A program made the position numbers and the translations under genes. From Bacteroidaceae bacterium (GTDB lineage Bacteria > Bacteroidota > Bacteroidia > Bacteroidales > Bacteroidaceae), in assembly GCA_017451645.1 (NCBI GenBank), contig JAFTNZ010000014.1:1-39404 (forward strand): DNA of 39,404 nt, read 5' to 3'. The notes beneath the pieces were generated by a model. That model was given only the letters and a program-made list of their open reading frames with translations, was not told the origin of the DNA and made no database searches. This document shows positions 18,924 through 39,286 of the stretch, piece by piece (the stretch's first letter is position 1; every line of letters begins with the position of its first letter).

Positions 18924-19007
18924 TTATCCCAAGCTTTGAGATAAGTAAACCAAACTTTGGTTTAATTATCCCAAGCCTTGGTTTAATTATCCTAAGGCTT
19001 GAGATAA
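18924..19007. repeat. Array of four near-palindromic units at a 21-bp period (array 1)
   Basis: Units start at 18924, 18945, 18966 and 18987. Examples are TTATCCCAAGCTTTGAGATA, TAAACCAAACTTTGGTTTAA and TTATCCCAAGCCTTGGTTTA. Each reads nearly the same on both strands. Outside, CAAGCCAA (18912-18919) and TTGGCTTG (19012-19019) form a flanking inverted repeat. The array sits in the 487-base gap between the immunity array and the HAF gene. No gene was found in that gap. Confidence 0.85.
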
Positions 19008-19154
19008 AGAATTGGCTTGCATGTTTTTGTTTTTCGGTGAGCTATATGCTTTTTCAGTTTGGGCGTTTTTGTTTTTCTGTATCGTCAGCGCACTGAAATA
19101 CAAATGATTCGATTGGCGAAACTTAAATAACATTAATATTTCCTCCTTTTTTCC

Positions 19155-19183
19155 TTGCACACATCCATATTATCCTATTTTTG
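19155..19183 (+). promoter_or_regulatory. Promoter of the HAF-repeat protein gene
   Basis: TTG at 19155-19157 followed after 18 bases by TATTTTTG (19176-19183) fits the Bacteroides -33/-7 consensus. The leader to ATG 19215 is about 25-30 bases and carries an AAAGGAAAAAA ribosome-site-like stretch. Confidence 0.7.
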
Positions 19184-19214
19184 CACACAAATCACTAAAA
19201 ATAAAGGAAAAAAC

Positions 19215-20696
19215 ATGAGAAAAACATTACTTGCTGCTGCAGGTTGTCTGGCTTTGTCTGCCGCTGTTGCCCAAGAGGCTGAAGTGAAGCTCGTGGCCAA
19301 AGTGCACAACCTCATTGAAGGGACAGCCCTCTGCGATTCGCTCCCCGGCTCGTTTGTACACGGTGTCTCATACAACGGTGAATATGCCGTGGGATATGGG
19401 ACAGAGTACACCAAATGGGCTTTTATCTGGAGCCGTTCGACGGGAAAGTTTGAACTGATAACCGGTGCATACGAAAACTCCTCCATAGCGAACGGAGTCT
19501 CCAACGACGGCCTGGTGGTAGGAGCCTACAATTGCGATCTCAAAGGCAATGGGGGTGAGGGATACCTCCGTCCCGGCATCTGGCGTGACGGTGTGTGGAC
19601 ACCGCTTCAGATAGAGGTGGAGGAAAACGAATTGGTGAGCGGACAAGACCCCACAGTGAACGGGGAAGCCTGCTTCATTTCCGGCGATGGCGCCTTCATT
19701 ACGGGATATATCTACAGCCCCAGTTTCCAACGCAACTTCTACGATGAGGATGGCTCTCTGTTGGAGACGAGAAACATCGGGTTGCTCCGTCCGGCCATCT
19801 GGACTTGGAATGAGAAAAAGGGAACTTACCAGCTGGAGGTGAAGTGGCGGAACACCCCCACGGGAGATGAGTTGCAGCAGGGCATGTGGTCGCACTACGG
19901 CTCTTCGCAGGATGCTACCGTGCTGGCCGGTGTGGCCGACCATCCGACGGGATGCCGCTCTCCGTCCGTGTGGGTGGGTGAACCGGGAAAACGTGCCACG
20001 CTGACCCGCATCTACGGCAAAGAGGATATTGACGTGAACAGCGAAGAGAGTCTTCCTTTTTACGATGGAGCCATGGGTAGCGTCAGCCCCAACGGCAAAT
20101 ATGCCGGCGGATATTGGGATCCCAATGGCAACGGTTACGAAATCACCGGTTTCATCTATGACACCGAGACAGAGGAGTTGGAAGAGATGCCCGGATGGGG
20201 CATGGTGACTGCCGCTCTCGACGACGGTACTCTCTTTGGTTCGGACGGATACATGGGCGGGGCATTGATTCGCACAGCCGACAAGAGCTACAACGGTGCG
20301 CTTCAGACCTATCTGGAGGAGAAGTACGGTGCGTTCACCGGCAACTTGCCAGGCACCATCCTCTCTGTGTCTGGTGATGGTACCGTCATTGGTGGGTGGT
20401 ATCCTGTGGCTGATGCCATCGGTGCATTGATGTACCCCAGCATTGTGGAAATCAAGCCTTTTGAAGAGTCGGATGCAGTGGATGCACTCACCCGCTACGA
20501 GCATAACATACTCATCATAGCCGATGAGGTGGTGGCTCCGAAAGCTGTGAAGGTGGAACTCTACAGCACACAGGGAGCTTTGCTCGCTACTGTGGATGAC
20601 AGCCGTATCAGCTTTGCCGGTATGCACGGAGTGGTTGTGGCCAAGGCCACTTATGCCGACGGACAGGTGCAGATGAAAAAAGTGGTGGCTGAATAA
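19215..20696 (+). CDS. Secreted HAF-repeat protein with a sorting-domain-like C-terminus
   Basis: The 493-aa protein has a signal peptide (RKTLLAAAGCLALSAAVAQ). Repeats of the extracellular HAF type follow, with the G-x-S-x-D/N-G pattern: GVSYNGEYAVGYG, GVSNDGLVVGAY, FISGDGAFITGYI, SVSPNGKYAGGYW, SVSGDGTVIGGWY. These would fold as a beta-propeller. The last ~80 residues (VKVELYSTQGALLATV to VQMKKVVAE) have the layout of a type IX-like C-terminal sorting domain, although a complete type IX system is not expected in Bacteroides. ATG 19215 was chosen over the upstream open frame because the signal peptide starts there and the -7 box overlaps the extension. Substrate or partner unknown. Confidence 0.8.
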   Translation: MRKTLLAAAGCLALSAAVAQEAEVKLVAKVHNLIEGTALCDSLPGSFVHGVSYNGEYAVGYGTEYTKWAFIWSRSTGKFELITGAYENSSIANGVSNDGLVVGAYNCDLKGNGGEGYLRPGIWRDGVWTPLQIEVEENELVSGQDPTVNGEACFISGDGAFITGYIYSPSFQRNFYDEDGSLLETRNIGLLRPAIWTWNEKKGTYQLEVKWRNTPTGDELQQGMWSHYGSSQDATVLAGVADHPTGCRSPSVWVGEPGKRATLTRIYGKEDIDVNSEESLPFYDGAMGSVSPNGKYAGGYWDPNGNGYEITGFIYDTETEELEEMPGWGMVTAALDDGTLFGSDGYMGGALIRTADKSYNGALQTYLEEKYGAFTGNLPGTILSVSGDGTVIGGWYPVADAIGALMYPSIVEIKPFEESDAVDALTRYEHNILIIADEVVAPKAVKVELYSTQGALLATVDDSRISFAGMHGVVVAKATYADGQVQMKKVVAE

Positions 20697-20716
20697 GGTG
20701 TTCAGATTTTAAACTC

Positions 20717-20766
20717 AAAAGTTTCAGGGTGTAAGGGCAGAGATTCTTACACCCTGAAACTTTTTT
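20717..20766. terminator. Bidirectional terminator between the HAF gene and fkp
   Basis: A perfect 19-bp stem, AAAAGTTTCAGGGTGTAAG (20717-20735) with its complement at 20746-20764, has A-rich and T-rich edges on both sides. It can end both convergent genes. The fkp stop codon starts in the T-run. Confidence 0.95.
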
Positions 20767-23623
20767 ACGACCTGCTCACTTGCAGTCCTTGTGTGGAGAG
20801 CGACATCTCCACAAAGCGGGCGCAGGCATTGAGCGGATTCTCTTGCAGCAACGTGCGGATGCGGGCAGCCGCTTCGGGGTCTTTGGCCACCATGTAGAGG
20901 TATCCGCCACCTCCGGCTCCGGGGAGCTTGTATCCCAAGCAGTAGTCCTTTATGCGGCTGATGATCTCTTCTACCGCTGGTGGGTTTGTGCCAGAGTCGA
21001 GTCGCTTGTTCTGTTCCCACGAGCGTCCGACAAGTTGTCCCATCTCGTGGAAGTTGCCTCGCTGTATGGCCTCGTAGAGGTCGATGGCATGCGCCTTCAT
21101 GTCGGCAAGCAGTTGCAGTTGGGCTGTCTCGTTGAGGAACATGCTGCGTACGATTTCCGCCAAAATGCCTTTGGCAGTGCGGGTGATGCCTGTATAGTAG
21201 AGCAGGTGGCACTTCTGGTACTCGGGGTTGGTGAAGAGGAAGTCGGGAAGCCAGCGCACGAGCGGACTCTGATTGAATCCGGAGGTAGTCTGTAGCAGTT
21301 TCACTCCGTGAAGCACACCACCATACTGGTCCTGCCAGCCACCGCCTGTGGTCAGCAGTTGTTCCAAGGCCAATGTGCGGAGGCAGATTTCGTTCTTGTC
21401 CCATGCCAGTCCGCAGAAGTCGGACACGGCTCCAAGTACCGTAGAGGCCAGAATGGAACTGGTGCCCAATCCCGAACCGGCGGGAATGGCTGAAAGCAAC
21501 GTCACCTCGATGCCCGAACCGAATGCCTGCAACTGTTGTTCGAGCGAAGCGTATTTCTCTGCAGAATGTTCGGGCGAGAATCCTGCCAAAGCCAATGCTG
21601 CCTTGGGGATGGAGAATGGGGAACCTACTTTGGCAAAGTCGCACAATTCCTCGTAGGTGCCGACTGTCTCTCTGGCTCCCAAGTCGATGGACCGGAGGAT
21701 AATCTTATATTCCCGGCAAGGTTTGACGTACGCTTGCAACGGGGGTTGCCCGTTCAGTTCGATGGCGATGTTCACCACATTGCCCCCTTCGTTCAGGCAG
21801 TAGGGTGGGGTGTCGGTCCATCCACCGGCCAAGTCGATGCGTACAGGGCTTCGTCCCCAGACAATCTGGTCGGCATAGACGGCACAGCGGGGCTGTTGTT
21901 TGGCCGCGAGGATGCGTTGGGTCAGTCCTTCGCGGAGCAGACCGAATGCCTGACTTTCCTCTTCGGTGGCGCTTTCTTCCCCCTTGAAGGAACGGAGACG
22001 TGCACGGAAGGCATGGTCGTGTATGCGGGTCATCAATCCGGCTCCGGCAGACAGCGGAGCAGGCTCTTGTAGATTGAAGCGGAAATATTCGGAGGCAGCA
22101 TCTTCCAGATTGACTTGATAGAAGACGCTTTTTTCGTGATTGGCAGCCAGTTTTTCCCAGTTGGTTGCCCGGAAAGTTTCGCGTTGCCGGTAGAGCCGGT
22201 ACAAGTTGGCTTTGACGGATATCTCGTCGGCAGAAAGCTTTTCTGCCCGCTCCCACAACGCTTTTCCTTGGGCGCATCCGGTTGGCTCTATCATCCAGCG
22301 TAGGATGGTGCCCATCTCATCTGTCGTGTGACAGATGGGGAAGAGCTTTGCTGCCTGCATGTCGTGGCTACCCTCTATTGAACTGATGGGGATATGGTGT
22401 CCGGCAGCCCAAGAGGTGAAAGGATGTTGCATGAAGGTGACACTGTCGTCAGCCAGTGGCCCTTTAAAGGAGTCGTTGAAACCGTAGGGACGGACAGCCC
22501 AGCCCGTTTCATCTACGGGGACAATGTCGATGCAGACCCCGGCGGGCAGGTTCAGCGTCCAATCGTTTTGGGGGACACCGGTGATGATGTGTTGGTGTGT
22601 CAATGTCCAGGAGGAGGGTATGTAGCTGTTCTCTATCCACACCTCATAGTTGTCTGCAGTCAGTGGTCGGGCAGTGAATGCGTTCTGGATGAACATGGCC
22701 GGATGGGCTTTCACCCGGCGATGAATGATTTCGCGTTGGTCGCTGACGATGTTCTGCACAGCTACGGTAGAGGAGATGAGTTCCCGACTGGTGCCATAGT
22801 GGTAAAACTCTCCGCCAGGCAATGGCAATACGGCTACGCTCAACTGCTGCAATTCTTCATCTGCTACGGTAGGATGTTCGCCCAAAGCACAGCCGAAGTC
22901 GGAATAGAGGTCGTAGTAGCTGATAGACGAGGGGTCGCCTGCTGTACCTCCCGAACGCTTCATCAACAGTTTGACGGCACGGTCGCTAAGTAGCCAGATG
23001 CCGATATCCATCAGAAAGAGGTGGGTCTGCAACAGTTCGGCCATACGCCCTACCGAAGGCTTTTGTAACATGAAGTCGAGTTTGTCGGGCGATTGGCGTG
23101 AGGAGACGAAGATGCCGTGGTTCTTGGCGAGGTTGGGATCTACCCACAGGCCGTAGCAGACCACATCGGCTTCGGGGATTTCCTGCAGGGGTTCGGATGA
23201 ACGGATATAGACATCACCGCTGGCTATCAGTGTGTGTAGCGATGCAGGGGCTTTTTCCATAATCCGGTCGTAGAGAGGTAATTGCAGCGAGAGCAGGTTC
23301 TGCTTGAGGCATTGCCCTTTGGCCCAACGGAAGATGGGAATCGGAGTCAGAATCTTACCTGACGGAGCATAGCCCGGCAACCGGCGGCTTTGTCCGCCGG
23401 CATGGAGCAGGATGCGCTTTTCGCTCGACAGCCATTCGTCGAAGTTCTCTCCCTCGTCAGCCCATGCCTGATGGCAGGCCGACAGCAACCAGGTGGTACC
23501 TCCTCCGGAGCCTAATTTGGCTCCCACAGGGTCGGAGGTACAAAACCACTCTTGGGCACTTACACCCTCTATCTCATGAAAACACTCCACCAGATTGGGT
23601 GGAAGTGACAGCAACTTTTTCAT
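20765..23623 (-). CDS. fkp: Bifunctional L-fucokinase / L-fucose-1-phosphate guanylyltransferase
   Basis: Salvages external L-fucose: the C-terminal kinase makes fucose-1-phosphate from ATP and the N-terminal domain adds GMP from GTP, giving GDP-fucose for capsular polysaccharide and glycoproteins. The 952-aa length is that of Bacteroides Fkp (about 950). The N-terminal domain has LHAGGQSRRLPGYAPSGKIL near residues 70-90. The GHMP kinase part starts near residue 590 with WGRSPVRIDLAGGWTDTPP, the phosphate loop IPAGSGLGTSSILAST, and the late motif LPGAGGGGYLYM. The upstream neighbour manC (20-base gap) makes GDP-mannose, the precursor of de novo GDP-fucose, so both routes to the same nucleotide sugar family are next to each other. 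Confidence 0.97.
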   Translation of the reverse strand: MKKLLSLPPNLVECFHEIEGVSAQEWFCTSDPVGAKLGSGGGTTWLLSACHQAWADEGENFDEWLSSEKRILLHAGGQSRRLPGYAPSGKILTPIPIFRWAKGQCLKQNLLSLQLPLYDRIMEKAPASLHTLIASGDVYIRSSEPLQEIPEADVVCYGLWVDPNLAKNHGIFVSSRQSPDKLDFMLQKPSVGRMAELLQTHLFLMDIGIWLLSDRAVKLLMKRSGGTAGDPSSISYYDLYSDFGCALGEHPTVADEELQQLSVAVLPLPGGEFYHYGTSRELISSTVAVQNIVSDQREIIHRRVKAHPAMFIQNAFTARPLTADNYEVWIENSYIPSSWTLTHQHIITGVPQNDWTLNLPAGVCIDIVPVDETGWAVRPYGFNDSFKGPLADDSVTFMQHPFTSWAAGHHIPISSIEGSHDMQAAKLFPICHTTDEMGTILRWMIEPTGCAQGKALWERAEKLSADEISVKANLYRLYRQRETFRATNWEKLAANHEKSVFYQVNLEDAASEYFRFNLQEPAPLSAGAGLMTRIHDHAFRARLRSFKGEESATEEESQAFGLLREGLTQRILAAKQQPRCAVYADQIVWGRSPVRIDLAGGWTDTPPYCLNEGGNVVNIAIELNGQPPLQAYVKPCREYKIILRSIDLGARETVGTYEELCDFAKVGSPFSIPKAALALAGFSPEHSAEKYASLEQQLQAFGSGIEVTLLSAIPAGSGLGTSSILASTVLGAVSDFCGLAWDKNEICLRTLALEQLLTTGGGWQDQYGGVLHGVKLLQTTSGFNQSPLVRWLPDFLFTNPEYQKCHLLYYTGITRTAKGILAEIVRSMFLNETAQLQLLADMKAHAIDLYEAIQRGNFHEMGQLVGRSWEQNKRLDSGTNPPAVEEIISRIKDYCLGYKLPGAGGGGYLYMVAKDPEAAARIRTLLQENPLNACARFVEMSLSTQGLQVSRS

Positions 23624-23643
23624 ATATAATTAATGTATCGGAT

Positions 23644-24738
23644 TTACACGTATTCGTCACCCATTTTCACTTGCGCGTCATTGATTATCTTGCGCAACAT
23701 GGCCGGGTCGTCTTTCGGGCAGATGAGCAACACTTGGTCAGTGTCGATTATCAGATAATCCTCCAACCCTTGTGCGACAATCAGTTTCTTGGGCTGACTG
23801 GTGGCGGTGAGGCAACCATGACAGTCGTAGTACATGCCGTGTGTGCTGACTGTGGCATTCTCCTCGCCGTCTTTGGGGAGGAGGTTGTGGAAGGTGCTCC
23901 ATGTTCCCAAGTCGCTCCAACCGAAGTCGCAAGTCATCACATAGACATTGTCTGCCTTTTCCAACAGGCCATACTCTATGGAAACATTGGGGCATGAAGG
24001 AAAGTGTTCTTCGATGAAGTGTCTCTCTTGTGCCGGTGTGCTATAAGGAGAGGTTTCTTCTCCATTGGCTTCGAAATGGAATGCCAACTCGGGCACATGG
24101 GTGCGGAATGCGTTGATAATGGTGTCGCTTTTCCCTAAGAATATTCCGGCATTCCAATAGAATTCACCGCTCTCCACAAAGATTTCAGCCAATTCACGTT
24201 CCGGCTTTTCCGTAAAGGTCTTGACAGAGTGGAATGTATCTTCTCCCTCATCCCCTATCTGAATGTATCCGTAGCGGGTCTCCGGGCGGTTGGGACGGAT
24301 GCCGACACATAGCAGGCAGGGGGAGCGATTGATAAATTCCATTCCTGCCTTGATGGCTTGGGTGAACTCCTCTTCCTTCATTATCAGATGGTCTGAGGGG
24401 GTGAAAACGATTGTGGCTTCGGGGTCGATGGCATGGATATGGTAAGTGGCCCATGCCAGACAAGGAGCTGTGTTGCGACGGGTAGGTTCGGACAGGATGT
24501 GTTCGACGGGCAAGGTTGGCAACTGTTCGGAGACTAATGCGGTGTAGTCGGTGTTTGTGACGACAAACACCCGGTCGGCTCCTACCAATCGGCTGTAGCG
24601 GTCGTAAGTCTGTTGCAGCAAAGTGCTTCCTGTGCCGAAGAAATCAATGAATTGTTTCGGCATTTCTTTGCGGCTCAATGGCCAAAAGCGGCTGCCGATA
24701 CCGCCTGCCATTATCACGCAGTAGTTATGGTCTTTCAT
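23644..24738 (-). CDS. manC: Mannose-1-phosphate guanylyltransferase
   Basis: Makes GDP-mannose from GTP and mannose-1-phosphate for capsule, lipopolysaccharide and GDP-fucose synthesis. The 364-aa protein begins with the nucleotidyltransferase signature MAGGIGSRFWPLSRKEMPKQF. It has FTPSDHLI and the sugar-binding block FTEKPERELAEIF, then FYWNAGIFLG. The length fits the single-domain type without the isomerase domain of ManC/AlgA fusions. It lies 20 bases upstream of fkp on the same strand and both are probably cotranscribed. Confidence 0.93.
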   Translation of the reverse strand: MKDHNYCVIMAGGIGSRFWPLSRKEMPKQFIDFFGTGSTLLQQTYDRYSRLVGADRVFVVTNTDYTALVSEQLPTLPVEHILSEPTRRNTAPCLAWATYHIHAIDPEATIVFTPSDHLIMKEEEFTQAIKAGMEFINRSPCLLCVGIRPNRPETRYGYIQIGDEGEDTFHSVKTFTEKPERELAEIFVESGEFYWNAGIFLGKSDTIINAFRTHVPELAFHFEANGEETSPYSTPAQERHFIEEHFPSCPNVSIEYGLLEKADNVYVMTCDFGWSDLGTWSTFHNLLPKDGEENATVSTHGMYYDCHGCLTATSQPKKLIVAQGLEDYLIIDTDQVLLICPKDDPAMLRKIINDAQVKMGDEYV

Positions 24739-24768
24739 GTCTTGTTTCCCCTTTTCTGATAAACACTG

Positions 24769-24800
24769 CTAAGGTAATCCTATTTTTTGGGATAAGCAAG
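24769..24800 (-). promoter_or_regulatory. Candidate promoter for manC-fkp
   Basis: On the minus strand CTTG (24797-24800) is followed after 20 bases by TACCTTAG (24769-24776), seven of eight matches to TAnnTTTG. It lies about 30 bases upstream of manC. Confidence 0.45.
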
Positions 24801-24861
24801 GAAGTGATGTGTAAAAAGTATTAATCTTGGTAAAGAATCGGGAGAAAGGGGGGGAAGTCTG

Positions 24862-24896
24862 AAAAAAAGGGTAGCCGGACAGCTAGTCGGCTACCC
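24862..24896 (-). terminator. Rho-independent terminator downstream of rubrerythrin
   Basis: GGGTAGCCG (24869-24877) pairs perfectly with CGGCTACCC (24888-24896), and the minus-strand transcript continues into a run of seven U. It follows the rubrerythrin gene after the repeat at 24907-25001, which would lie in the 3' untranslated region. Confidence 0.85.
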
Positions 24897-24906
24897 GTAT
24901 GACATA

Positions 24907-25001
24907 GTTCAGGAGTTACAGGAGTTCAGACGATAGTCCCAACTGTACTTTTGGGGTGTTCAAGACCATTGTCCGGATTCCTGTAGTTCCTGAAAGTTAA
25001 G
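24907..25001. repeat. Hairpin repeat of the AGGAGTT(C/A) family, copy A
   Basis: GTTCAGGAGTTACAGGAGTT with CAGACGATAGTC forms the left arm. The right arm (CATTGTCCGGATTCCTGTAG and onward to about 25001) is its imperfect complement with several mismatches and G-U pairs. The same unit occurs at 28289 and 29229. Confidence 0.8.
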
Positions 25002-25031
25002 CCTGCAAGACTTGAATTGTGATCTGAAAAA

Positions 25032-25610: not shown

Positions 25611-25702
25611 GTTGTTCAAGAATTAAAGATGAATAAATGTATGAAAGGAAACAGGCTGACGGAGAAAAAGTTCAGAGAGGTTCTATAAATTAGTTCCTTC
25701 GT

Positions 25703-27010: not shown

Positions 27011-27017
27011 AGGCTGT

Positions 27018-28271: not shown

Positions 28272-28288
28272 TTCGTTGGATAGATAAG

Positions 28289-28395
28289 AGGAGTTCAGGA
28301 GTTCGGGAGTTACAGGAGTTCAGACAAACGTCTTGATATATGCAAGCTGTACTATTGTCTGAACTCCTGAACTTCTGTAACTCCTGCTACTCCTA
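28289..28395. repeat. Hairpin repeat of the AGGAGTT(C/A) family, copy B
   Basis: Units AGGAGTTC, GGGAGTTAC and AGGAGTTCAGACAAAC form the left arm. The right arm (ATTGTCTGAACTCCTGAAC and CTCCTGCTACTCC) is its near complement. It fills the gap between kduD and the DUF4861 gene and would form a large hairpin in the leader of the latter. Confidence 0.85.
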
Positions 28396-28407
28396 TAGTA
28401 AGAAAAC

Positions 28408-29228: not shown

Positions 29229-29375
29229 GGGAGTTCAGGAGTTCAGGAGTTACAGGAGTTCAGACAATAGTCTTGCGCTCCGCCTCCATCAATCCTTCAT
29301 CCCGTTGTTATTAATAATCCTTTACAATAAGCTGTCAGTAGCTTGCTTGTTCCTGAACTCCTGTAACTCCTTGAA
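29229..29375. repeat. Hairpin repeat of the AGGAGTT(C/A) family, copy C
   Basis: Left arm 29229-29275 starts with GAGTTCAGGAGTTCAGGAGT and continues TACAGGAGTTCAGACAATAG. The right arm 29348-29372 (TGTTCCTGAACTCCTGTAAC) complements it. Nearly the whole kduI-kduD gap consists of this element. There is no U-run, so it is not a clear terminator. Confidence 0.85.
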
Positions 29376-30221: not shown

Positions 30222-30265
30222 ACCAATTTATTTAAATAAAGATTGTTTTTTAAAGTTATTTGAAG

Positions 30266-30273: not shown

Positions 30274-30401
30274 CTAAAAAGAATGACTATATCCTCTATG
30301 AAGACTATGTTTTTTACTAAATTTAAAGAACTGGGTTCAGGTTTGAGGGTGGAAATGCAGAAAAGTTGCTCTTTCACGGTGTTTAATCCGATGATTATTA
30401 T

Positions 30402-30409
30402 TACTTTTG
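30402..30409 (+). promoter_or_regulatory. -7 box for valS
   Basis: TACTTTTG, a perfect match to TAnnTTTG, lies 113 bases upstream of the valS start, leaving a leader of about 105 bases. A -33 is not clear. The long leader has no recognised T-box or hairpin, although it contains TTCCCCACAGGGCAGAAAA. Confidence 0.55.
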
Positions 30410-30521
30410 CACCAAATTCTTTTCGTGGATGGTTTTTTCTCTCCCGTCAGGAAAAAAATCTTCCCCACAGGGCAGAAAAAAAGTAAAGGCAAACAAGTAA
30501 AATAAAACATATATAACAAAA

Positions 30522-33227
30522 ATGGAATTAGCAAGTAAGTACAATCCCGCAGATGTGGAGGCCAAATGGTATCAATATTGGCTGGACAACAAGCTCTTCA
30601 GTTCAAAACCCGATGGACGCAAACCTTATACCGTCGTCATCCCTCCTCCTAATGTCACCGGAGTACTCCATATGGGACACATGCTCAACAATACCATTCA
30701 AGATATCCTGGTACGCCGTGCCCGTATGAAGGGTTATAATGCTTGTTGGGTACCGGGCACCGACCATGCCTCCATTGCCACCGAAGCTAAGGTGGTAAAA
30801 AAACTCTCTGAACAGGGAATCAAAAAGAGCGATCTCACACGCGAGGAGTTCCTCAAACATGCGTGGGAATGGACCAACGAACACGGAGGTATCATCCTAA
30901 AGCAACTGCGTAAGCTGGGTGCATCATGCGATTGGGATCGTACCGCCTTTACCATGGATGAGAAACGCAGCGAGAGCGTCATCAAGGTTTTCGTTGACCT
31001 CTACAACAAGGGACTCATCTATCGCGGATTGCGCATGGTAAATTGGGACCCCAAGGCACAAACCGCACTCAGCAACGAAGAGGTAATATATAAAGAGGAG
31101 AAAAGCAAACTCTACTACCTCAAATATTATCTAACAGAAGCCGATGCACAAACCCTCAATGAAGAAGAGGGAAACATCATCCATCGCGATGAGAAAGGAC
31201 TCTATGCAGTAGTAGCAACCACACGTCCCGAAACAATCATGGGAGATACTGCCATGTGCATCAACCCCAAAGACCCCAAAAACACTTGGCTGAAGGGAAA
31301 ACATGTCATCGTTCCGTTGGTTGGTCGCGAGATTCCCGTCATCGAAGACCGATACGTGGAAATCGAGTTTGGTACCGGCTGTCTGAAAGTAACTCCCGCA
31401 CACGACACCAACGACTATATGTTGGGCAAGAAGCACAATTTGGAGACTATCGACATCTTCAACCCCGATGGCACACTCAGCGAAGAGGCTGGTCTTTATA
31501 TCGGGAAAGACCGTATGGAAGTACGCCGTCTGATAGCCAAGGACCTTGAAGCTGCCGGTCTGCTGGAGAAGATTGAAGACTATGACAACAAGGTTGGATA
31601 CTCTGAGCGTAATGCCGACACAGCCGTCGAGCCCCGCCTCTGCATGCAATGGTTCCTGCGTATGCAACATTTTGCCGACATTGCATTACCACCGGTGATG
31701 AACGATGAACTGAAATTCTATCCTCCCAAATACAAGACCACTTACAACAATTGGCTTGAAAACATCCAAGACTGGTGCATAAGCCGCCAGCTCTGGTGGG
31801 GACATCGCATACCAGCCTACTTTCTTCCTACCACCGAGGGTGAAGAAGAGAAGTTCGTTGTAGCACAAACCGTTGAAGAGGCACTCAAGCTGGCAAGACA
31901 AATCGAAGGATATGAACATATAACCGCATCCGAACTCCGTCAGGACGAAGATGCACTCGACACCTGGTTCTCATCCTGGCTTTGGCCCATCTCACTTTTC
32001 GATGGAATCAACAACCCCGGTAACGAAGAAATCAGCTACTACTACCCTACAAGCGATTTGGTTACAGGCCCGGACATCATCTTCTTCTGGGTGGCCCGCA
32101 TGATTATGGCCGGTTATGAATACTTGGGCGATATGCCGTTCAAGAATGTATATTTCACCGGCATCGTGCGCGATAAGCTCGGACGTAAAATGTCAAAGTC
32201 TCTTGGCAATTCGCCCGACCCGTTGGAACTTATCGAACGTTTCGGAGCCGATGGGGTACGCATGGGAATGATGCTTTCTGCTCCTGCCGGAAACGATATC
32301 CTCTTCGATGATGCTCTCTGCGAGCAGGGACGTAACTTCAACAACAAGATATGGAATGCTTTCCGCCTTGTGAAGGGTTGGCAGGTTGCCGATATCGAAC
32401 AACCCGAATATGCTGCACTGGCAACCCGGTGGTTTGAATCTATGTTGGCAAAGACGGCTGCTGAAGTAGACGACCTCTTCAGCAAATACCGCTTGAGCGA
32501 AGCACTCATGGCTGTTTACAAACTCTTCTGGGACGAGTTCTCAAGCTGGTATCTGGAGATGGTGAAGCCTGCCTACATCAATGGCGAACCGCAACCTATC
32601 GACCGCGCCACTTATGAAAAGACACTCGGTTTCTTCGATAGCCTCTTGAAGTTGCTCCACCCCTTCATGCCGTTCATCACCGAAGAACTTTGGCAACACC
32701 TCTACGACCGCAAGGAGGGAGAAAGTCTGATGGTGCAGGAGTTGGACATCCCCACCGCTTGCGACGAAGAGATTGTGAAGGCCTTCGAAGCCGTGAAGGA
32801 AGTTATTGGTGGTATCCGCACCATACGCTTGCAAAAGAATATTGCTCAAAAAGAGACATTGGAATTGCAAGTAGTAGGCGCAAATCCTGTAGCAACTTTC
32901 AATAGTGTAATAGCCAAGTTGTGCAACCTTACTGCCGTATCGGCCGTTGAGAATAAGGTCGAGGGTTCAGCTTCATTCATGGTAGGCACTACTGAGTATG
33001 CTGTGCCTCTGGGTAGTCTCATCAATGTAGAGGAAGAGTTGAAGAAACTCGAAGCCGACCTGAAGTACAACGAAGGTTTCTTGCAAAGTGTGTTGAAGAA
33101 ACTCAGCAACGAAAAGTTTGTAAGCAAAGCACCTGCCGCCGTCATCGAGATGGAGCGCAAGAAACAAGCCGATGCCGAGAGCAAGATTGCTGCATTGAAG
33201 GAAAGCATTGCTGCACTGAAAAAGTAA
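30522..33227 (+). CDS. valS: Valyl-tRNA synthetase
   Basis: Charges tRNA-Val with valine. The 901-aa class I synthetase has the HIGH motif as HMGH at residues 50-53 ([13 protein letters not shown]), the KMSKS motif [11 protein letters not shown] near 556, the editing domain in between ([13 protein letters not shown]) and a C-terminal coiled-coil arm from about residue 835 to the end, rich in K, E and L. All are intact. It is monocistronic on the plus strand, with a promoter at 30402 and a terminator at 33240-33295. Confidence 0.97.
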
Positions 33228-33239
33228 AAAATGATATTC

Positions 33240-33295
33240 GGAGAGGAGCTGTGTCAGAATACTACCGGTTGATTGGCACCTCCTCTCCTTTTTTT
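33240..33295 (+). terminator. Rho-independent terminator between valS and the glycosyltransferase
   Basis: GGAGAGGAG (33240-33248) pairs with CTCCTCTCC (33280-33288), followed by seven T (33289-33295). The stem is strong though the loop is about 31 bases. The next start codon lies only five bases after the T-run. Confidence 0.85.
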
Positions 33296-33300
33296 ATGGT

Positions 33301-34056
33301 ATGAATGACGAAAAAGTCCTGACGTTTACCTTTATCACCGTCACCTATAATGCGGAAGAGACCTTGGAGCGTACTCTACGGAGTGTGGCAGAACAGACCT
33401 ATCCGCACATCGAACACATTCTCATTGACGGGGCTTCGAAAGACCGTACATTGGAGATTGCGCATACCCATGGGGGGCATTTGGCAAAAATCGTAAGCGA
33501 ACCCGACCGTGGTCTTTACGACGCCATGAACAAAGGGATTCATCTGGCCACGGGGGATTATGTTTGTTTCCTCAATGCGGGAGACAAATTGCATGATAGC
33601 GAAACGTTGGAGCACATTCACTCGTCACTTGTAGCCTGTAGCCCGTCACTCATGACTCTCCCCGGAGTCCTTTATGGTCATACCGACATTGTAGATGACG
33701 ATGGATGTTATCTTGGACCTCGTCACCTCTTGCCACCCGAGCAACTTTCTTGGAAGAGTTTCAGGCAAGGGATGCTTGTCTGTCATCAGGCTTTTTATGC
33801 AAGACGCGACCTTTGTCTGGAGTACGATACGGATTTCCGATTCTCTGCCGACTTTGATTGGTGTATCCGTGTGATGAAGCAGACGGACGATTTGCTTCAC
33901 TTGCCCTTCACCGTGGTTGATTATCTGCAAGAAGGAATGACGACACGCAACCATCGCGCCTCGCTTGTCGAACGCTTCCGGCTGATGTGTCGTCATTATG
34001 GTGTGGCAAGTACCATTGTCCGCCATTTTGGTTTTCTGTTGCGAAGCCTCAAATAA
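33301..34056 (+). CDS. Family 2 glycosyltransferase
   Basis: Transfers a sugar from a nucleotide donor, probably in surface polysaccharide synthesis. The 251-aa protein shows the GT2 core: FTFITVTYNAEETLERTLRS at the N-terminus, then ILIDGASKDRTLEIA, SEPDRGLYDAMNKGI, and GDYVCFLNAGD, where NAGD replaces the DxD metal motif. No transmembrane helix was seen. The start is fixed because the first strand begins eight residues later. Residues SSLVACSPSLM are encoded by a copy of an intergenic repeat (33621-33644). It lies directly behind the valS terminator with no room for a promoter and overlaps the convergent birA by eight bases. Confidence 0.88.
   Translation: MNDEKVLTFTFITVTYNAEETLERTLRSVAEQTYPHIEHILIDGASKDRTLEIAHTHGGHLAKIVSEPDRGLYDAMNKGIHLATGDYVCFLNAGDKLHDSETLEHIHSSLVACSPSLMTLPGVLYGHTDIVDDDGCYLGPRHLLPPEQLSWKSFRQGMLVCHQAFYARRDLCLEYDTDFRFSADFDWCIRVMKQTDDLLHLPFTVVDYLQEGMTTRNHRASLVERFRLMCRHYGVASTIVRHFGFLLRSLK
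33621..33644 (+). repeat. Intragenic copy of the repeat seen near murI
   Basis: CTCGTCACTTGTAGCCTGTA with GCCC matches 5291-5314 at 20 of 24 positions. It lies in the reading frame of the glycosyltransferase and adds residues there without breaking the frame. Confidence 0.55.
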
Positions 34057-34849
34057 CGTACTCCACTTCTTTGAATCCAAAGGTTCGGATGTTTCCTTCG
34101 CGGTCTTCCAACAACAGATGACCGTCCGTTTTCACTCCACGGATACGTGCATCGAACTGCGTATCCCCCTGTCGGAAAAGGTGATACCCTACGCGTCTGA
34201 ACAGTCCCTTATGATAGTGGTCAATGAGGTCGTGGGTCTGTCCTTGACGTATCTGATTGTAATATGTGACAAATCTTTGGATTATTTTCTTCATGATGGT
34301 CAGTGGCTCGGTGGCATGTCCGGTTATCTGCCACACAGAGACGGGGTTAGGCGCATCACTGTGGAAGGTTTCCTGATTCAGGTTGATGCCCACACCGATG
34401 ATGCAAGTTTCCATATTCTTTCCCATCAAGTCGGTTTCAATCAGGATGCCGCATAGTTTCTTCTTGTTCCAGTAGATGTCGTTCGGCCATTTGATACGTG
34501 GATGTGGCGAGCGGACATAGTCATCAAGCGTCTCTTTTACACTGAGTGCCATTGCTTGCGACAAGATGAATTGTTCGTTCGCCGTCAGGAATGTGGGATG
34601 CATCATGATGCTGAACGTCAGATTCTTATTGGGAGCTGATTCCCACGAATTGCCCCGTTGTCCCCGACCTGCAGTCTGCGACTTGGCCACTACGGCTACA
34701 AACTCCTTTTCCACCTTGTCTGCGGGCAGATTGCGCAGATAGCTATTTGTTGAATCCACCTCCTTCAAAGTGATTACCTGTACCTGCTCCAGGTTACTGC
34801 TGCTGCCGTAGCCATAGCCGTGCAACGGATGTTTCTTCTTTTTTTCCAT
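34049..34849 (-). CDS. birA: Biotin--[acetyl-CoA-carboxylase] ligase
   Basis: Attaches biotin to the carrier protein of biotin-dependent carboxylases through biotinyl-AMP. The 266-aa protein has the family block VDSTNSYLRN, the biotinyl-AMP loop GRGQRGNSWES (consensus GRGRRGRxW) near residue 62, and RIKWPNDIYWNKKKLCGILIE with the catalytic Lys region, then IIGVGINLN. There is no N-terminal helix-turn-helix, so it is the non-repressor type. The first ~25 residues (KKKKHPLHGYGYGSSSNLEQ) are not conserved in my memory of the family. It precedes nothing in its own direction and overlaps the convergent glycosyltransferase by eight bases. Confidence 0.93.
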   Translation of the reverse strand: MEKKKKHPLHGYGYGSSSNLEQVQVITLKEVDSTNSYLRNLPADKVEKEFVAVVAKSQTAGRGQRGNSWESAPNKNLTFSIMMHPTFLTANEQFILSQAMALSVKETLDDYVRSPHPRIKWPNDIYWNKKKLCGILIETDLMGKNMETCIIGVGINLNQETFHSDAPNPVSVWQITGHATEPLTIMKKIIQRFVTYYNQIRQGQTHDLIDHYHKGLFRRVGYHLFRQGDTQFDARIRGVKTDGHLLLEDREGNIRTFGFKEVEYVI

Positions 34850-34876
34850 GAGTTTCTTATTTAGGGGTTCATAATT

Positions 34877-35245
34877 TCAGTTCCACATGGGAGGGAAAAA
34901 GGCATCGCAGATGTGCTCTATCCTGTATGGGGCTTCTTCACCAATGACGGTAATGATATCGAAACGCACCGGTAGGTCAATGGCGAACTTGCGTAAGTAG
35001 GCATCGGTCGAAGCCACTATGCGGCGTATTTTCCTGCCATCTACCGCATCTTCCGGTTGGCCGAACAGCGTATCTTTCCGACTTTTTACCTCTACCACCA
35101 CCAGTTCGTTGCCTTGGCGTGCTACGATGTCGAGTTCTTTGTGCCCGCTCCGCCAGTTGCGGTGCAAGATGGTGTAGCCATTTGTCAGAAGATGTTTAGC
35201 GGCTTCTTCTTCACCCCTTTTTCCCCGTAGATTATGTTCTGCCAT
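34877..35245 (-). CDS. YraN/UPF0102 family endonuclease-like protein
   Basis: The 122-aa protein has the UPF0102 pattern: LRGKRGEEEAAKHLLTNGY, then LHRNWRSGHKELDIVARQGN followed by ELVVVEVKSRKDTLFG. Acidic residues (E, D and ExK in VVEVKSR) form a PD-(D/E)xK-type site like Holliday-junction resolvases. The physiological role of the family is not settled. It lies 27 bases upstream of birA on the same strand and is probably in the same transcript. Confidence 0.92.
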   Translation of the reverse strand: MAEHNLRGKRGEEEAAKHLLTNGYTILHRNWRSGHKELDIVARQGNELVVVEVKSRKDTLFGQPEDAVDGRKIRRIVASTDAYLRKFAIDLPVRFDIITVIGEEAPYRIEHICDAFFPPMWN

Positions 35246-35287
35246 AGGTTTGTCGGAAGTTTATTCGCAAAAATAAAAACTTTTTTC

Positions 35288-35318
35288 TTGTAAATCAAAC
35301 AAGTTAGCATTATTTTTG
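35288..35318 (+). promoter_or_regulatory. Promoter directly in front of a small gene
   Basis: TTG (35288-35290), then 20 bases, then TATTTTTG (35311-35318), a perfect -7 box. The start codon ATG 35328 is only nine bases after the box, so the transcript should start at or a few bases before the start codon. Confidence 0.7.
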
Positions 35319-35327
35319 CACTTGATT

Positions 35328-35564
35328 ATGAGAAACAATGCCAAAAGACGTGTAAAGGTGCTTTCCACGGAGCCAAAACGTCACCAGCGGTTGGTCTGTC
35401 TGGTCAGTGAGGAGGAGGCACAGATAGTGGATCGTTATCTGAAGAAATACAAGATAACGAACAAGGGGCGGTGGGTGCGTGAGACGCTACTGGCTTTCAT
35501 TCATCGCAACATGATGGAAGAGGACTATCCGACGTTGTTCAACGAACACGAAATGCGTCGGTAG
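35328..35564 (+). CDS. Small basic protein, ribbon-helix-helix-like
   Basis: 78 aa, cytoplasmic, with a basic N-terminus (RNNAKRRVKVLSTEPKRHQR). The pattern RLVCLVSEEEAQIVDRYLKK then GRWVRETLLAFIHRN reads as a strand followed by two helices, as in ribbon-helix-helix DNA-binding proteins and some mobilisation accessory proteins. The family was not identified. Open frame exists upstream to 35316, but that part overlaps the -7 box, so ATG 35328 is used. It would be read from an mRNA with almost no leader. The next gene, tadA, starts 56 bases later. Confidence 0.6.
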   Translation: MRNNAKRRVKVLSTEPKRHQRLVCLVSEEEAQIVDRYLKKYKITNKGRWVRETLLAFIHRNMMEEDYPTLFNEHEMRR

Positions 35565-35620
35565 GTCGGACGTTGGAGATGCACATCCCGTAGATTATAT
35601 ATATAATAAGGTATAGAATC

Positions 35621-36067
35621 ATGAATTCCACAGAAGAAAAAGACATCCGATACATGAAAAGAGCTTTAGATGAAGCTCGGGCAGCATTCGATGAAGGTGA
35701 GGTGCCCGTGGGGGCTGTCATTGTATGTCAGGATAGGGTGATAGCCCGTGCCCATAACTTGACGGAAACGCTTACTGATGTGACGGCCCATGCAGAAATG
35801 CAAGCATTGACGGCAGCAGCCAATACATTGGGTGGGAAGTATCTGAACGAGTGTACGCTTTACGTCACAGTGGAGCCGTGCATCATGTGTGCCGGAGCTA
35901 TCGGATGGGCTCAAGTGAGTCGTGTGGTTTTCGGTGCTTCTGACGAGAAACGTGGGTATCAGCGTTTTGCTCCCGAGGCATTGCATCCCAAGACAGAAGT
36001 GGTACAAGGAGTGTTGGCCGATGAGGCGGCTGCCCTGATGAAGGATTTTTTCAGAATGAAAAGGTAA
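35621..36067 (+). CDS. tadA: tRNA-specific adenosine deaminase
   Basis: Deaminates adenosine 34 of tRNA-Arg(ACG) to inosine. The 148-aa protein has the zinc site of the cytidine-deaminase fold: H57-A58-E59 in VTAHAEMQAL and P86-C87-x-x-C90 in EPCIMCAGAI. Family landmarks EVPVGAVIV and RVVFGASDEKRGY are present. The length is normal. It follows the small ribbon-helix-helix-like gene on the same strand. Confidence 0.93.
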   Translation: MNSTEEKDIRYMKRALDEARAAFDEGEVPVGAVIVCQDRVIARAHNLTETLTDVTAHAEMQALTAAANTLGGKYLNECTLYVTVEPCIMCAGAIGWAQVSRVVFGASDEKRGYQRFAPEALHPKTEVVQGVLADEAAALMKDFFRMKR

Positions 36068-36090
36068 CTTCGGCTTCCCTCCTATGTGTC

Positions 36091-36495
36091 TTACATGCTT
36101 TTTATCAGTTCTTTCAGCTGTGAAGAAGACACCCCTTCGGTGCGTGGCATGATTACCACCTGTTTGCCATTTTCCCTGCAATAGGCTTCAGCCTTGCAGA
36201 ACCCTTCGTGATTCTGATCCGGCCCTTTGGCAAAAACGTCAAAGTCTATCTCGTTTACCAGTTCGTCAACACCCCGATAAACGACGACTTCATCTACATA
36301 CCTGATGGATTTCACCATATAGCACCGCTCTTCGGTACTATATACCAGGTTGACATCCGGTTTGTATTGGAGCACAACTTCCGAGTCCTGTACGGCTACA
36401 ATCAGATGGTTGCCCAGTGCTTTGGCTTTGCGGAACAGTTCTATGTGTCCGATATGCAAGAGGTCGTAAACCCCGACAGTCAATACCTTTTTCAT
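36091..36495 (-). CDS. Cytidylyltransferase-like protein (TagD/RfaE-C type)
   Basis: The 134-aa nucleotidyltransferase has GVYDLLHIGHIELFRKAK at the N-terminus with the HxGH motif, and near the end TEGVSSSQL for the ISSS-like loop. The family transfers CMP or AMP to phosphorylated sugars or polyols, for example glycerol-3-phosphate (TagD) or heptose phosphate (RfaE C-terminal domain). The substrate cannot be read. Its neighbour, one base overlapping, is a lipid A-type acyltransferase, so an envelope role is likely. Confidence 0.85.
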   Translation of the reverse strand: MKKVLTVGVYDLLHIGHIELFRKAKALGNHLIVAVQDSEVVLQYKPDVNLVYSTEERCYMVKSIRYVDEVVVYRGVDELVNEIDFDVFAKGPDQNHEGFCKAEAYCRENGKQVVIMPRTEGVSSSQLKELIKSM

Positions 36496-37448
36496 TACTT
36501 CTGTTGTTGGTTTTGTCTGATTCTCTCCTGTTTCCCTCGTTCGCGCTCTTCCATCTTCCGCTCATACACTTCATGCTTGCGCTTCCATCGGTTGTGTGAC
36601 CACAGCCAATAGGCCGGCGCTTCCTTTATACTTTGCTCCAGCATGTGCATATAGGTTTCAGTGATGGGGTATTCGGATGTTGCATCTTTGTCCACCTGCA
36701 TCGGGCGGAAAGTGGCGCGGTAATATCCTCTTTTAGGACGCGTTATGTCAATGTAGTAGAGGCATCCGTTAGTCTGTTGGGCCAAGCGTTCGGTACCTGT
36801 GAACACCGGAGTGTCCTGGTGTAGGAAATCCATCCACAAATGGATGTTGTTCCAATGGGGAGTTTGGTCTGAGATGAATCCGATAATGCTTTTTTCCCCT
36901 TTGCGTTGCATTGTGACGATGCGGCGAAGGGTCTGGTTCATGGAGATGTTTTCGGCCCCATAGCGTGAGCGTTGCTCAAGGAACAGTTTGTCGAACACCT
37001 TGCTTTCCAATGGATGGTAAATTTGTGCGCAGTGCAGTTTCTCTCTGGTCCACAAGGGGAGGGAGGCTACCCATTCCCAATTGCAGTAGTGTCCCAAATA
37101 GGCAAAGCAGAGAGTGTGTCCTCCCCGTTCCATCTCTTCGTAGATGGCGTCCAGTCCGTCGAAGGTCATTCGTCGGTGCATCTCTTCGCTGCTCATGGTA
37201 CGCACTTTGATTGTCTCCACCACATAGTCGCAGAACCAGGAGTAGAACCCTTTCTCAATCTCCAAAATCTCCTTCCCCGTTTTTTCAGGGAAGGAGTTCA
37301 CGAGATTCTTGTGTACCACCTTGCGCCGGTAGCGGACACAGTAAAAGAGCGGATAATAGATGATATCCGACAAGATATAGAGTATCCGCAAAGGCAGCAG
37401 AGAGAGCAAATGCCACAGTGTGCCTACAAGGTGATATGTGATATTCAT
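36495..37448 (-). CDS. Lipid A biosynthesis acyltransferase-like protein (LpxL/HtrB family)
   Basis: Family members transfer a fatty acyl chain to the lipid A precursor at the inner membrane. The 317-aa protein has an N-terminal hydrophobic stretch (LLSLLPLRILYILSDIIYYPL) and the catalytic HxxxxE motif as H120-YCNW-E125 in LGHYCNWEW. The C-terminal part is highly basic and Q-rich (RKMEERERGKQERIRQNQQQ). Ornithine- or other lipid acylation cannot be excluded. The stop overlaps the following gene by one base (TAATG). Confidence 0.88.
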   Translation of the reverse strand: MNITYHLVGTLWHLLSLLPLRILYILSDIIYYPLFYCVRYRRKVVHKNLVNSFPEKTGKEILEIEKGFYSWFCDYVVETIKVRTMSSEEMHRRMTFDGLDAIYEEMERGGHTLCFAYLGHYCNWEWVASLPLWTREKLHCAQIYHPLESKVFDKLFLEQRSRYGAENISMNQTLRRIVTMQRKGEKSIIGFISDQTPHWNNIHLWMDFLHQDTPVFTGTERLAQQTNGCLYYIDITRPKRGYYRATFRPMQVDKDATSEYPITETYMHMLEQSIKEAPAYWLWSHNRWKRKHEVYERKMEERERGKQERIRQNQQQK

Positions 37449-37470
37449 GTTGTGTTTTCTCCGAGTCTTC

Positions 37471-38967
37471 TTATTTGGTGTATCTTGCCCAGTCCGTCAG
37501 GCGCATGTCTCCCTGCTTGGCCAGTGTGTCGTGCATTCCCAGTGCGGCAGCCACGTTGTGGCAGGTCTGACCTTTGGAGGTTATCTTCAGGTAGTCCCAC
37601 AAGAGGTTCTTGTAGTCGGGGTGTGCACAGTTCTCAATGATAGTTTGTGCACGCTGCATGGGGCTTTTGCCTCTGAGGTCTGCTATACCCTGTTCGGTGA
37701 TGATGATGTTTACATCGTGTTCCGTATGGTCGTGGTGCGACACCATGGGGACGATGGCGCTGATTTTTCCCTCTTTGGCCACCGACGGGCAGGTGAAGAT
37801 GGAGATGTAGGCATTGCGGGTGAAGTCGCCCGAACCGCCGATGCCGTTCATCATCTTTGTGCCACCGATGTGTGTAGAGTTGATGTTGCCGTAGATGTCG
37901 GCCTCGATGGCAGTGTTGATGGAGATGATGCCCAATCGGCGCACAATCTCGGGGCTGTTGCTGATTTCACTCGGTCGGAGCACCAGCTTGTCGCGGAAGA
38001 AATCCATGTCCTCATAGATTCCGTTGAGGCACTCGTTGGTCACGGTGAGCGAGCAGGTGCTTCCGAATTTCACACGTCCTTGTCGGATGAGGGCGACCAC
38101 AGCATCCTGCAGCACCTCGGTGTACATCTCAAAAGCAGGTATTGTCGTGTCGCGTCCCAAGGCACCGAGCACGGCATTGGCGATGTTTCCCACACCACTC
38201 TGCAGGGGCAGGAATGTAGAAGGGATGATGCCGCGGCGCATGTCTGCAGCAAGGAAATCTGCCACATTCTGTCCGATCTGGTCGGTCACTGGGTCCGGAG
38301 CCGTGAAGGCACGTGCCTCATCCGGCTTGTTCACTTCCACAATACCCACAATCTTGGCCGGATCTACCTGTACATAGGGAGAACCTATGCGGTCGCTGGG
38401 CTTGAAGATAGGGATTTCGCGACGACACGGGGGGTCGAGCGGTTCATATACATCGTGCAGTCCGATGCTGTTCCGGCTGTGTGCTGCATTGAGTTCTATC
38501 ACCACCTTGTCAGCCAGGCGGGCGATGGTGGGCGATATACCTCCGGCTGCTGTCAGATACACCTTGCCGTCGGGAGTCACTTCGCAAGCCTCAAGGATGG
38601 CCAGATTAACCTTTCCCATGAATCCGTAGCGCACCTCCTGGGCCATTTGCGAGAGGTGGATGTCGTTGTAGGCTATTTCTCCATTGTTGACAGCCTTGCG
38701 GAAGTCGGGGTTGGTTGTGTAAGGAGCCCGGTATCGGATAGCCTTTGCCCGCGACAGGATGCCGTCGCACGAGTCACCGGTAGATGCACCGGTAAAGATT
38801 CCAATCTGGTAAGGATTTCCTTTGGCATGTTCCGATTCCGCTATTTTTGCGATTTCTTGAGTCACTGCTTTCGGTGTACCGGCGGGAGTAAATCCGCTAA
38901 GTCCGATGTTGTCGCCATGTTTCACAAGGCTGGCAGCCTCAGCTGCCGAGATGAATTTCAAGCTCAT
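37471..38967 (-). CDS. Acetyl-CoA hydrolase / succinate-type CoA-transferase
   Basis: Family enzymes move CoA between carboxylic acids, for example succinyl-CoA to acetate, or hydrolyse acetyl-CoA. The 498-aa protein has GLSGFTPAGTPKAV near the start, GASTGDSCDG, SGVGNIANAV, and AFEMYTEVLQD with Glu284 as the likely CoA-bound catalytic residue, then NSTHIGGTKMMNGIGGSGDF. In succinate- and acetate-producing Bacteroides it would act in fermentation. The exact acid pair cannot be read. A perfect -7 box TACCTTTG lies at 39010-39017 on the minus strand. Confidence 0.9.
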   Translation of the reverse strand: MSLKFISAAEAASLVKHGDNIGLSGFTPAGTPKAVTQEIAKIAESEHAKGNPYQIGIFTGASTGDSCDGILSRAKAIRYRAPYTTNPDFRKAVNNGEIAYNDIHLSQMAQEVRYGFMGKVNLAILEACEVTPDGKVYLTAAGGISPTIARLADKVVIELNAAHSRNSIGLHDVYEPLDPPCRREIPIFKPSDRIGSPYVQVDPAKIVGIVEVNKPDEARAFTAPDPVTDQIGQNVADFLAADMRRGIIPSTFLPLQSGVGNIANAVLGALGRDTTIPAFEMYTEVLQDAVVALIRQGRVKFGSTCSLTVTNECLNGIYEDMDFFRDKLVLRPSEISNSPEIVRRLGIISINTAIEADIYGNINSTHIGGTKMMNGIGGSGDFTRNAYISIFTCPSVAKEGKISAIVPMVSHHDHTEHDVNIIITEQGIADLRGKSPMQRAQTIIENCAHPDYKNLLWDYLKITSKGQTCHNVAAALGMHDTLAKQGDMRLTDWARYTK

Positions 38968-39009
38968 AATATTTTCTGTAAAAAATCTCTCTTCTTATAT
39001 AGAATTGGA

Positions 39010-39017
39010 CAAAGGTA
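39010..39017 (-). promoter_or_regulatory. -7 box for the CoA-transferase gene
   Basis: Minus strand reads TACCTTTG, a perfect TAnnTTTG, 42 bases before the start codon. A matching -33 was not found. Confidence 0.5.
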
Positions 39018-39198
39018 CGGGTTTTCTTTCAAATATCCATGTTTTTCAGTCAAAAAACCGCTGAAAAGGGACATCTTCCCGACTTCATCAGAATTTTCAT
39101 CCCTCCGCTCCGAAAGCGGAAGAACGTGGGAACATTCGATTTGCAGCACTCCAAAACCTGTTTGCCTCTTGCTTTTTATGATCAGAGTGAAGAGAAAA

Positions 39199-39286
39199 GT
39201 TTAATCATCGGTGCAAACTATATAATCATCGTCGATGATTACATAGTTATCGTCGATGATTACGTAATCATCGTCGATGATTAAAC
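39199..39286. repeat. Array of four near-palindromic units at a 21-bp period (array 2)
   Basis: Units start at 39202, 39223, 39244 and 39265. Units 2 and 4 are the perfect-arm palindrome TAATCATCGTCGATGATTA, unit 3 differs by two bases (TAGTTATCGTCGATGATTA) and unit 1 is degenerate (TAATCATCGGTGCAAACTA). GTTTAATCATC at the left end and GATGATTAAAC at the right end close the array as an inverted repeat. The rest of 38968-39404 holds no gene that I can see. Confidence 0.9.

Follow-up and report, generated by a model that had tools for sequence, protein, structure and literature searches.

Two intergenic arrays of near-palindromic units in a 39,404-nucleotide stretch of a Bacteroidaceae genome (contig JAFTNZ010000014.1 of assembly GCA_017451645.1, positions 1 to 39,404; hereafter the window) belong to a widespread class of Bacteroidales elements that very probably act as four-site platforms, each for a particular HU-HIG protein, with a proposed autoregulatory role at the protein's own gene and an architectural or regulatory role elsewhere. 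We give this interpretation, which is built on sequence comparison, a probability of about 0.8. Arrays of this kind are associated with HU-HIG genes and stand in phase with their promoters, their half-sites covary with a helix of the encoded protein, copies with the same core occur in trans, and a plan of four units is common to them.

Array 1 (family 1; 18924..19007, not assigned to a strand) consists of four near-palindromic units of 21 bp, which start at 18924, 18945, 18966 and 18987 and hold half-sites of two types, TTATCCCAAG (A) and TTAAACCAAG (B). It is framed by an outer inverted repeat, CAAGCCAA at 18912..18919 on the plus strand and TTGGCTTG at 19012..19019 on the minus strand. Array 2 (family 2; 39201..39284, likewise without strand) has 4 x 21-bp units with an ATCGnCGAT core within TAATCA/TGATTA arms, and lies between AGAGAAAAGT at 39191..39200 (plus strand) and ACTTCTCT at 39285..39292 (minus strand). 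All four outer repeats were read from the sequence. In the register of array 1, the units of array 2 start at 39201, 39222, 39243 and 39264, one base before the positions given by an earlier sequence-only reading of the window; unit 1 is degenerate, with 4 of 9 positions paired, and units 2-4 score 9, 7 and 9. Tandem Repeats Finder returned a period of 21 for both arrays. The sequence-only reading had described four units at exactly 21 bp with outer inverted repeats, and our analysis confirms this layout. It had further proposed that two different cores on one plan mark a class of element and not one repeat family, that the unit centres lie two helix turns apart, and that the arrays might be docking sites for dimeric or nucleoid-associated proteins or, as another option, self-copying palindromes growing by slippage. 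The class, the two-turn spacing and the protein docking are supported by the results below, with HU-HIG as the likely partner on account of its upstream arrays and of the covariation between recognition helix and half-site; the slippage part did not hold.

To determine period and chance level, 423,885 bases of the source genome (the window and 20 further stretches, 14 around known copies and 6 arbitrary) were scanned for sets of four, or three, good palindromes, with every period between 14 and 40 allowed and five shuffles per source. In the four-unit scan eight arrays emerged, all at period 21, and the 26 other periods stayed empty. With three units, period 21 gave ten arrays and period 14 gave one; no other period gave any. 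The shuffles yielded no array in either version, which places the arrays beyond the shuffle level. As 14 of the 20 stretches had been picked around known copies, the scan speaks for the uniqueness of the period and not for density. Array 2 passes the three-unit scan and fails the four-unit scan, and weaker known copies in five stretches (L030, L032, L033, L036 and L037) fail both. A covariance model built from arrays of other species recovered all scan arrays and found two new ones in the six arbitrary stretches.

The unit number does not vary freely either. All four units were supported in 87 of 87 arrays by a local leave-one-out test, and an extension test found a full fifth unit in 1 of the 87; at a looser cut, 7 of 174 flanking 21-mers passed as extra units. 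This set was selected by a four-unit score, so that shorter arrays would escape it. Exceptions to the four-unit plan are a three-unit array (L051) and a two-unit remnant (L319). A minisatellite or slippage repeat was rejected on these unit numbers.

The arrays lead to HU-HIG genes. In the source genome, three arrays of family 2 adjoin a HU-HIG gene; two arrays of family 1, both from other species, adjoin another HU-HIG paralogue (47-49% identity). Of 15 genomes of the genus searched, 12 contained HU-HIG, with 24 hits. At 15 of these 24 loci the best set of 4 x 21-bp palindromes scores at least 24/36 and lies just upstream, with a core of its own for each paralogue. The other nine score 17-23; L074 among them is cut by a contig end and some look by eye like worn arrays, while L089, L094 and L097 have no array. 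HU-HIG matches were obtained in 39 of 61 sampled genomes of the source's family, many of them weak. We then surveyed the best 80 of 114 loci from a GTDB genome scan, all with titles naming Bacteroidales, taking the 350 bp upstream of each gene and scoring repeats with symmetry, at periods from 19 to 23, against the 99.5th percentile of 800 shuffles. An array was detected upstream of 68 of the 80 HU-HIG genes, compared to 10 of 329 other open reading frames (ORFs) of the same loci. The best period in the 68 positive regions was 21 in 60 and 22 in 8 (one of the latter, L178, may be 21), and never 19, 20 or 23; the spacing thus does not vary freely, and the same plan of 4 x 21 bp recurs with other cores in front of HU-HIG genes. 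By a simpler palindrome score, 42 of 80 regions were positive versus 1 of 800 shuffles, and when periods 13-32 were compared, 21 came out best in 53 of the 80. Among 12 records of a plasmid collection with a relative, the best three (P. massiliensis, P. distasonis and B. finegoldii, all named strain TSDC17.2-1.1) each have an array, with scores of 0.50, 0.62 and 0.67 against a threshold of 0.483. A phage origin was rejected, as viral contigs gave 76 pattern stretches and no confirmed HU-HIG relative.

Four of the ten positive control ORFs directly precede, on the same strand, a HU-HIG gene without its own array, and three of these four are VapE/BT4734-like. Such PrimPol-type genes stand directly before HU-HIG at L186:796-2880, L189:776-2857 and L196:697-2868, with an array of 22-bp period upstream of the VapE/BT4734-like gene. 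A 22-bp period with even-centred palindromes was also seen upstream of HU-HIG at L202, L193, L200, L194, L146, L149 and L152, and this subgroup suggests another spacing rule in one clade.

Next, we determined where the arrays stand relative to the HU-HIG promoters. The -7 consensus is TAnnTTTG, and the first downstream TAnnTTTG, or else TAnnTTTA, was taken past 52 odd-centred 21-bp arrays. The box follows the array at exactly 20 bp in 28 cases, at 41-45 bp in 14 and at 63-64 bp in 3; four boxes stand at other distances, and three arrays have none. Correspondingly, 34 of 49 boxes fall on one phase modulo 21, although the loci are interrelated and these counts therefore not independent. In the 20-bp class many arrays have ..TTTG as their last bases, a presumed -33 box. 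The array is thus seen to abut or overlap the HU-HIG promoter at intervals close to 21 bp. This observed geometry makes autoregulation by the protein most likely, with repression as its probable sign.

Pfam describes HU-HIG (PF18291) as an HU domain fused to a winged helix-turn-helix, immunoglobulin or glycine-rich motif. Four HU proteins were scanned and matched PF18291 with 40.8, 56.0, 48.5 and 50.1 bits (gathering cut-off 26.2), while the remaining survey proteins were assigned by similarity. TIGR01201 (HU_rel), scanned with one protein, stayed at 51.5 bits under its cut-off of 68.6. The AlphaFold model of the L127 protein (mean predicted local distance difference test 85.6, predicted template modelling score 0.54) has helices at 144-157, 163-170 and 174-186 and strands at 192-195 and 202-205; according to this model, the C-terminal part is a winged helix. 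The best solved match in Foldseek is 4fmr, a putative DNA-binding protein from Bacteroides vulgatus. HU-fold matches include 1ihf, 2np2 and 5l8z with E above 0.001, and winged-helix proteins are among the matches, every one with E weaker than 0.001.

The array motifs covary with the predicted recognition helix. Across 43 loci, and with HU-domain distance removed, motif distance tracks the distance in residues 172-186 (partial Mantel r 0.42, p 0.0005); HU-domain distance adds little once the winged helix is accounted for (r 0.13, p 0.02). Every variable column of the protein was scanned against the half-site offsets, with 60 permutations each, and the top seven pairs (column/offset, z) were 179/4 (14.1), 178/7 (13.5), 10/2 (13.4), 175/5 (10.8), 163/7 (10.2), 12/2 (9.4) and 182/6 (8.4). 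In the predicted winged helix, residues 175, 178, 179 and 182 share a face of helix three (174-186). A pyrimidine at -4 occurs at 18 of 19 loci with Arg or Lys at 179 and at 3 of 25 with other residues. Residue 179 and base -4 thus agree in 40 of 44 loci. On the HU-domain tree each of these two traits changes 10 times and both jointly 12 times; when 6228 traits were simulated on that tree, none reached this agreement. Likewise, Thr175 goes with C at -5 in 28 of 33 loci, and other residues at 175 go with T in 11 of 11.

Based on the covariation, we propose that the C-terminal winged helix of HU-HIG reads the half-sites. One dimer would occupy each 21-bp palindrome; with two helical turns from one to the next, all four dimers would sit on the same face of the DNA, which the HU domains would bend or wrap together with its phased flanks. 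Paralogues reading different cores would leave the two window arrays alike in geometry and unlike in sequence. Other arrays with the same core, including both in the window, would be trans targets beside unrelated genes, where the DNA may be shaped or regulated locally; we consider this the weakest step of the proposal.

Family 1 occurs at six further places in the source genome and family 2 at eight. At one family 1 copy (C12:122145) blastn aligns a part only, and the covariance model aligns all 84 positions. Among 41 genomes searched, family 1 is present in 5, all of the same genus, and family 2 in 8, of which seven belong to the genus and one (G032) is a marginal match outside the family. 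The inner core of family 2 varies by species, with ATCGnCGAT in the source genome and AGCAnTGCT in several relatives, and the outer arms are constant. A third family of the source genome (L047, L048) matches the HU-HIG gene on contig 9 (C9). The genes adjoining the dispersed arrays are unrelated to each other. Downstream of one family 2 array lies a candidate defence pair, an AbiLi-like ATPase gene with a second ORF (L031:10783-12473, on contig C12 of G000), and the copied flank there includes the HU-HIG promoter region.

A covariance model (R1) built from 32 arrays, with 150 candidates scored per genome, found arrays in 17 of 18 distinct genomes, at 4 to 92 strand-wise matches each and often two per array; it gave no match in Phocaeicola faecalis (G093), though the HU-HIG gene of this species has a weak array. 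From Parabacteroides faecalis AGMB00274 we took 20 stretches, 19 at places among the matches listed and one arbitrary. All 19 arrays examined, out of 56 strand-wise matches, carry the core of the HU-HIG gene in L267, and the second HU-HIG gene of the strain (L253) has an array with a different core. By mechanically called ORFs, nine of the 19 lie between divergent, nine between tandem and one between convergent genes, and in six a further such ORF crosses the array. In 61-82% of 38 edges the flanks have A at positions 21, 43 and 65, and likewise TTT at 24-26 and at 46-48, a pattern that is the 21-22-bp phase carrying on from the array.

Alternatively, the arrays could be non-coding mobile elements, of the miniature inverted-repeat transposable element (MITE) or repetitive extragenic palindrome (REP) type, which became associated with HU-HIG by hitch-hiking. 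Their many similar copies per genome fit this, as do the common 5-bp ends ATTCT/AGAAT of the Parabacteroides faecalis copies, also seen in family 3, and two loci (L010 and L013) that carry part of the HU promoter region along with the array. Gain and loss are seen upstream of thyA, where Parabacteroides faecalis has an array and 1 of 19 sister Parabacteroides loci (20 sister genomes) has one, with a different core. By eye, the two-unit remnant at L319, upstream of thyA in a Parabacteroides relative, lies between ATTCTT and AAAGAAT. For array 2, the neighbouring coenzyme A (CoA)-transferase region matches in 14 of 15 genomes of the genus, source included; homology stops near the CoA-transferase start codon in the 13 relatives read, which leaves the insertion point unreadable and yielded no empty site there. 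In one relative (L292), an array with a different core stands some 580 bp upstream. Hitch-hikers would not be expected to show covariation of core and helix, promoter phase or a four-unit plan, some places are conserved between species (for example L006 and L029, 95% over 762 bp), and neither target duplications nor a transposase were found, albeit without a systematic search. We therefore regard a mobile element as improbable.

Another possibility is that an unrelated dimeric regulator, encoded elsewhere, uses the arrays as operators, HU-HIG genes being only one of its targets. Operator palindromes are generally common near promoters, but each paralogue has a core of its own that covaries with its own helix, which argues that the encoded protein itself is the reader and makes such a regulator very unlikely.

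The half-sites also bear on the level at which the arrays act. In Parabacteroides faecalis, 56 of 57 unit junctions join A to B, with a polarity in most arrays. Four sets of arrays were tested, and in every one the least similar halves were those that meet across a junction (permutation p 0.0005 each). We infer as a plain reason that a perfect 84-bp palindrome would be unstable; directional assembly is another candidate reason. A hairpin of the whole array as the selected structure was rejected on these unlike halves. That the arrays act as RNA, as hairpins or one long double-stranded stem in transcripts, would suit the palindromic units and complementary outer ends, but is barely credible given the weakened long pairing, the lack of a G-U excess in palindrome mismatches on the gene-sense strand (GT/TG 155, AC/CA 199), which points to a DNA element, and an Rfam scan of the window in which no match reached the gathering score.

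Several observations weigh against the arrays being HU-HIG platforms as proposed. Binding of HU-HIG to the arrays is a prediction. The upstream test left 12 of the 80 HU-HIG genes without an array, of which four may be served by the array of the preceding gene. The cognate HU-HIG gene of family 1 was found in G006 and G002 but not in the source genome (72.6% complete). Columns 10, 12 and 163 lie outside the helix yet rank among the best seven, and an independent-pairs test of the covariation yielded three supported pairs, too few for a decision. G000 (L091) and G006 (L076) have near-identical helices but differ in the inner core, ATCG in the former and AGCA in the latter, so that the helix leaves part of the core unexplained. 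Finally, the dispersed arrays keep no fixed distance to a -7 box (20 boxes on 38 edges at positions 35-172, compared to 5.6 expected from shuffles), and a regulatory role at these places is thus conjectural.

In the window, the closest outward -7-like boxes are TATTTTTG at 19176..19183 (plus strand), 168 bp to the right of array 1 and ahead of an ORF at 19215, and TACCTTTG at 39010..39017 (minus strand), 183 bp to the left of array 2 and ahead of the CoA-transferase gene (37471-38967). Next to array 2, positions 39296-39404 hold an insertion sequence (IS)-like stretch with copies near the ends of contigs C13, C30, C31 and C10 and in C19. Three family 2 arrays (C4, C13, C30) have it within about 15 bp, each at a contig end; possibly this is an IS that inserts beside family 2 arrays. 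A search of the plasmid collection with it gave no match. Elsewhere, a dispersed repeat of about 54 bp at 18755-18808 and 15303-15357 holds a palindrome (TTCGCGTTTGTAACGCGAA) and has more copies, both in the source genome and in a further six of the genus. At 28289-28386, 29230-29263 and 29351-29371, between predicted genes, there are short tandem repeats of the AGGAGTTC / CTGAACTC type.

The HU-HIG family itself is already known, and its arrays are undescribed in the literature searched, most subscription papers being outside its reach; the same search returned no description of HU-HIG DNA sites. An expansion of HU-HIG in Bacteroidetes, with a predicted role against invading elements, was reportedly described by Burroughs et al. 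in 2017. To our knowledge, neither DNA sites nor arrays, autoregulation or a recognition code have been reported for these proteins. IHF, HU and Hbb share the HU fold with HU-HIG but are not known to have a winged helix or a four-site array. In ParB/parS and MatP/matS, one protein with its own gene serves palindromic sites spread over the chromosome; these are usually single sites of one sequence, in contrast to the four-site arrays and the paralogues with different cores found here. REP palindromes and bacterial interspersed mosaic elements (BIMEs) come with a REP-associated tyrosine transposase (RAYT). In the part of the source available, REP/BIME palindromes are described as GTAG- or CGTC-tagged (PMC3733652). 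The one paper found under the name HU-HIG has, as far as its accessible part goes, a different subject (PMC11035120). Judging from the portion of PMC4596501 available, the closest named DNA element is BrickBuilt, a MITE of Porphyromonas gingivalis with 19 copies in one strain and promoter elements. Like the arrays, it is intergenic and multi-copy, with tandem repeats of about two helix turns and inverted-repeat ends (PMC4596501). It differs in unit, number and symmetry: its 23-nt direct repeat AGAYCATARTATCCTCTCRTRTG has a consensus that is not palindromic and reaches 18 full repeats in one element, whereas the window arrays have 21-bp palindromic units of other sequences. BrickBuilt also has a leader and a tail, and the text examined names no cognate DNA-binding protein (PMC4596501). 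Its ends are like those of IS5-family elements (PMC4596501); the ends seen in Parabacteroides faecalis and family 3 arrays are the 5-bp ATTCT/AGAAT. One of the 19 elements, BrickBuilt_14, adjoins PGN_0872, an HU-type (PF00216) DNA-binding gene (PMC4596501).

Taken further, these findings may point to an undescribed class of genome-organising system in Bacteroidales, for which we see an even chance. In such a system, families of HU-winged-helix proteins would have their own four-site arrays as orthogonal pairs; protein and site would switch specificity together through a short helix code in which residues 175, 178, 179 and 182 read offsets 5, 7, 4 and 6. The arrays, placed beside as many as tens of genes in a genome, would form phased nucleoprotein hubs of about 200 bp. 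The analysis provides a candidate DNA target for HU-HIG, the phasing of arrays and promoters, a putative recognition code and catalogued sites in named strains such as Parabacteroides faecalis AGMB00274, which together make the function of HU-HIG directly testable. In addition, modular HU fusions with specificity for defined half-sites would offer a new means of positioning bends in DNA.

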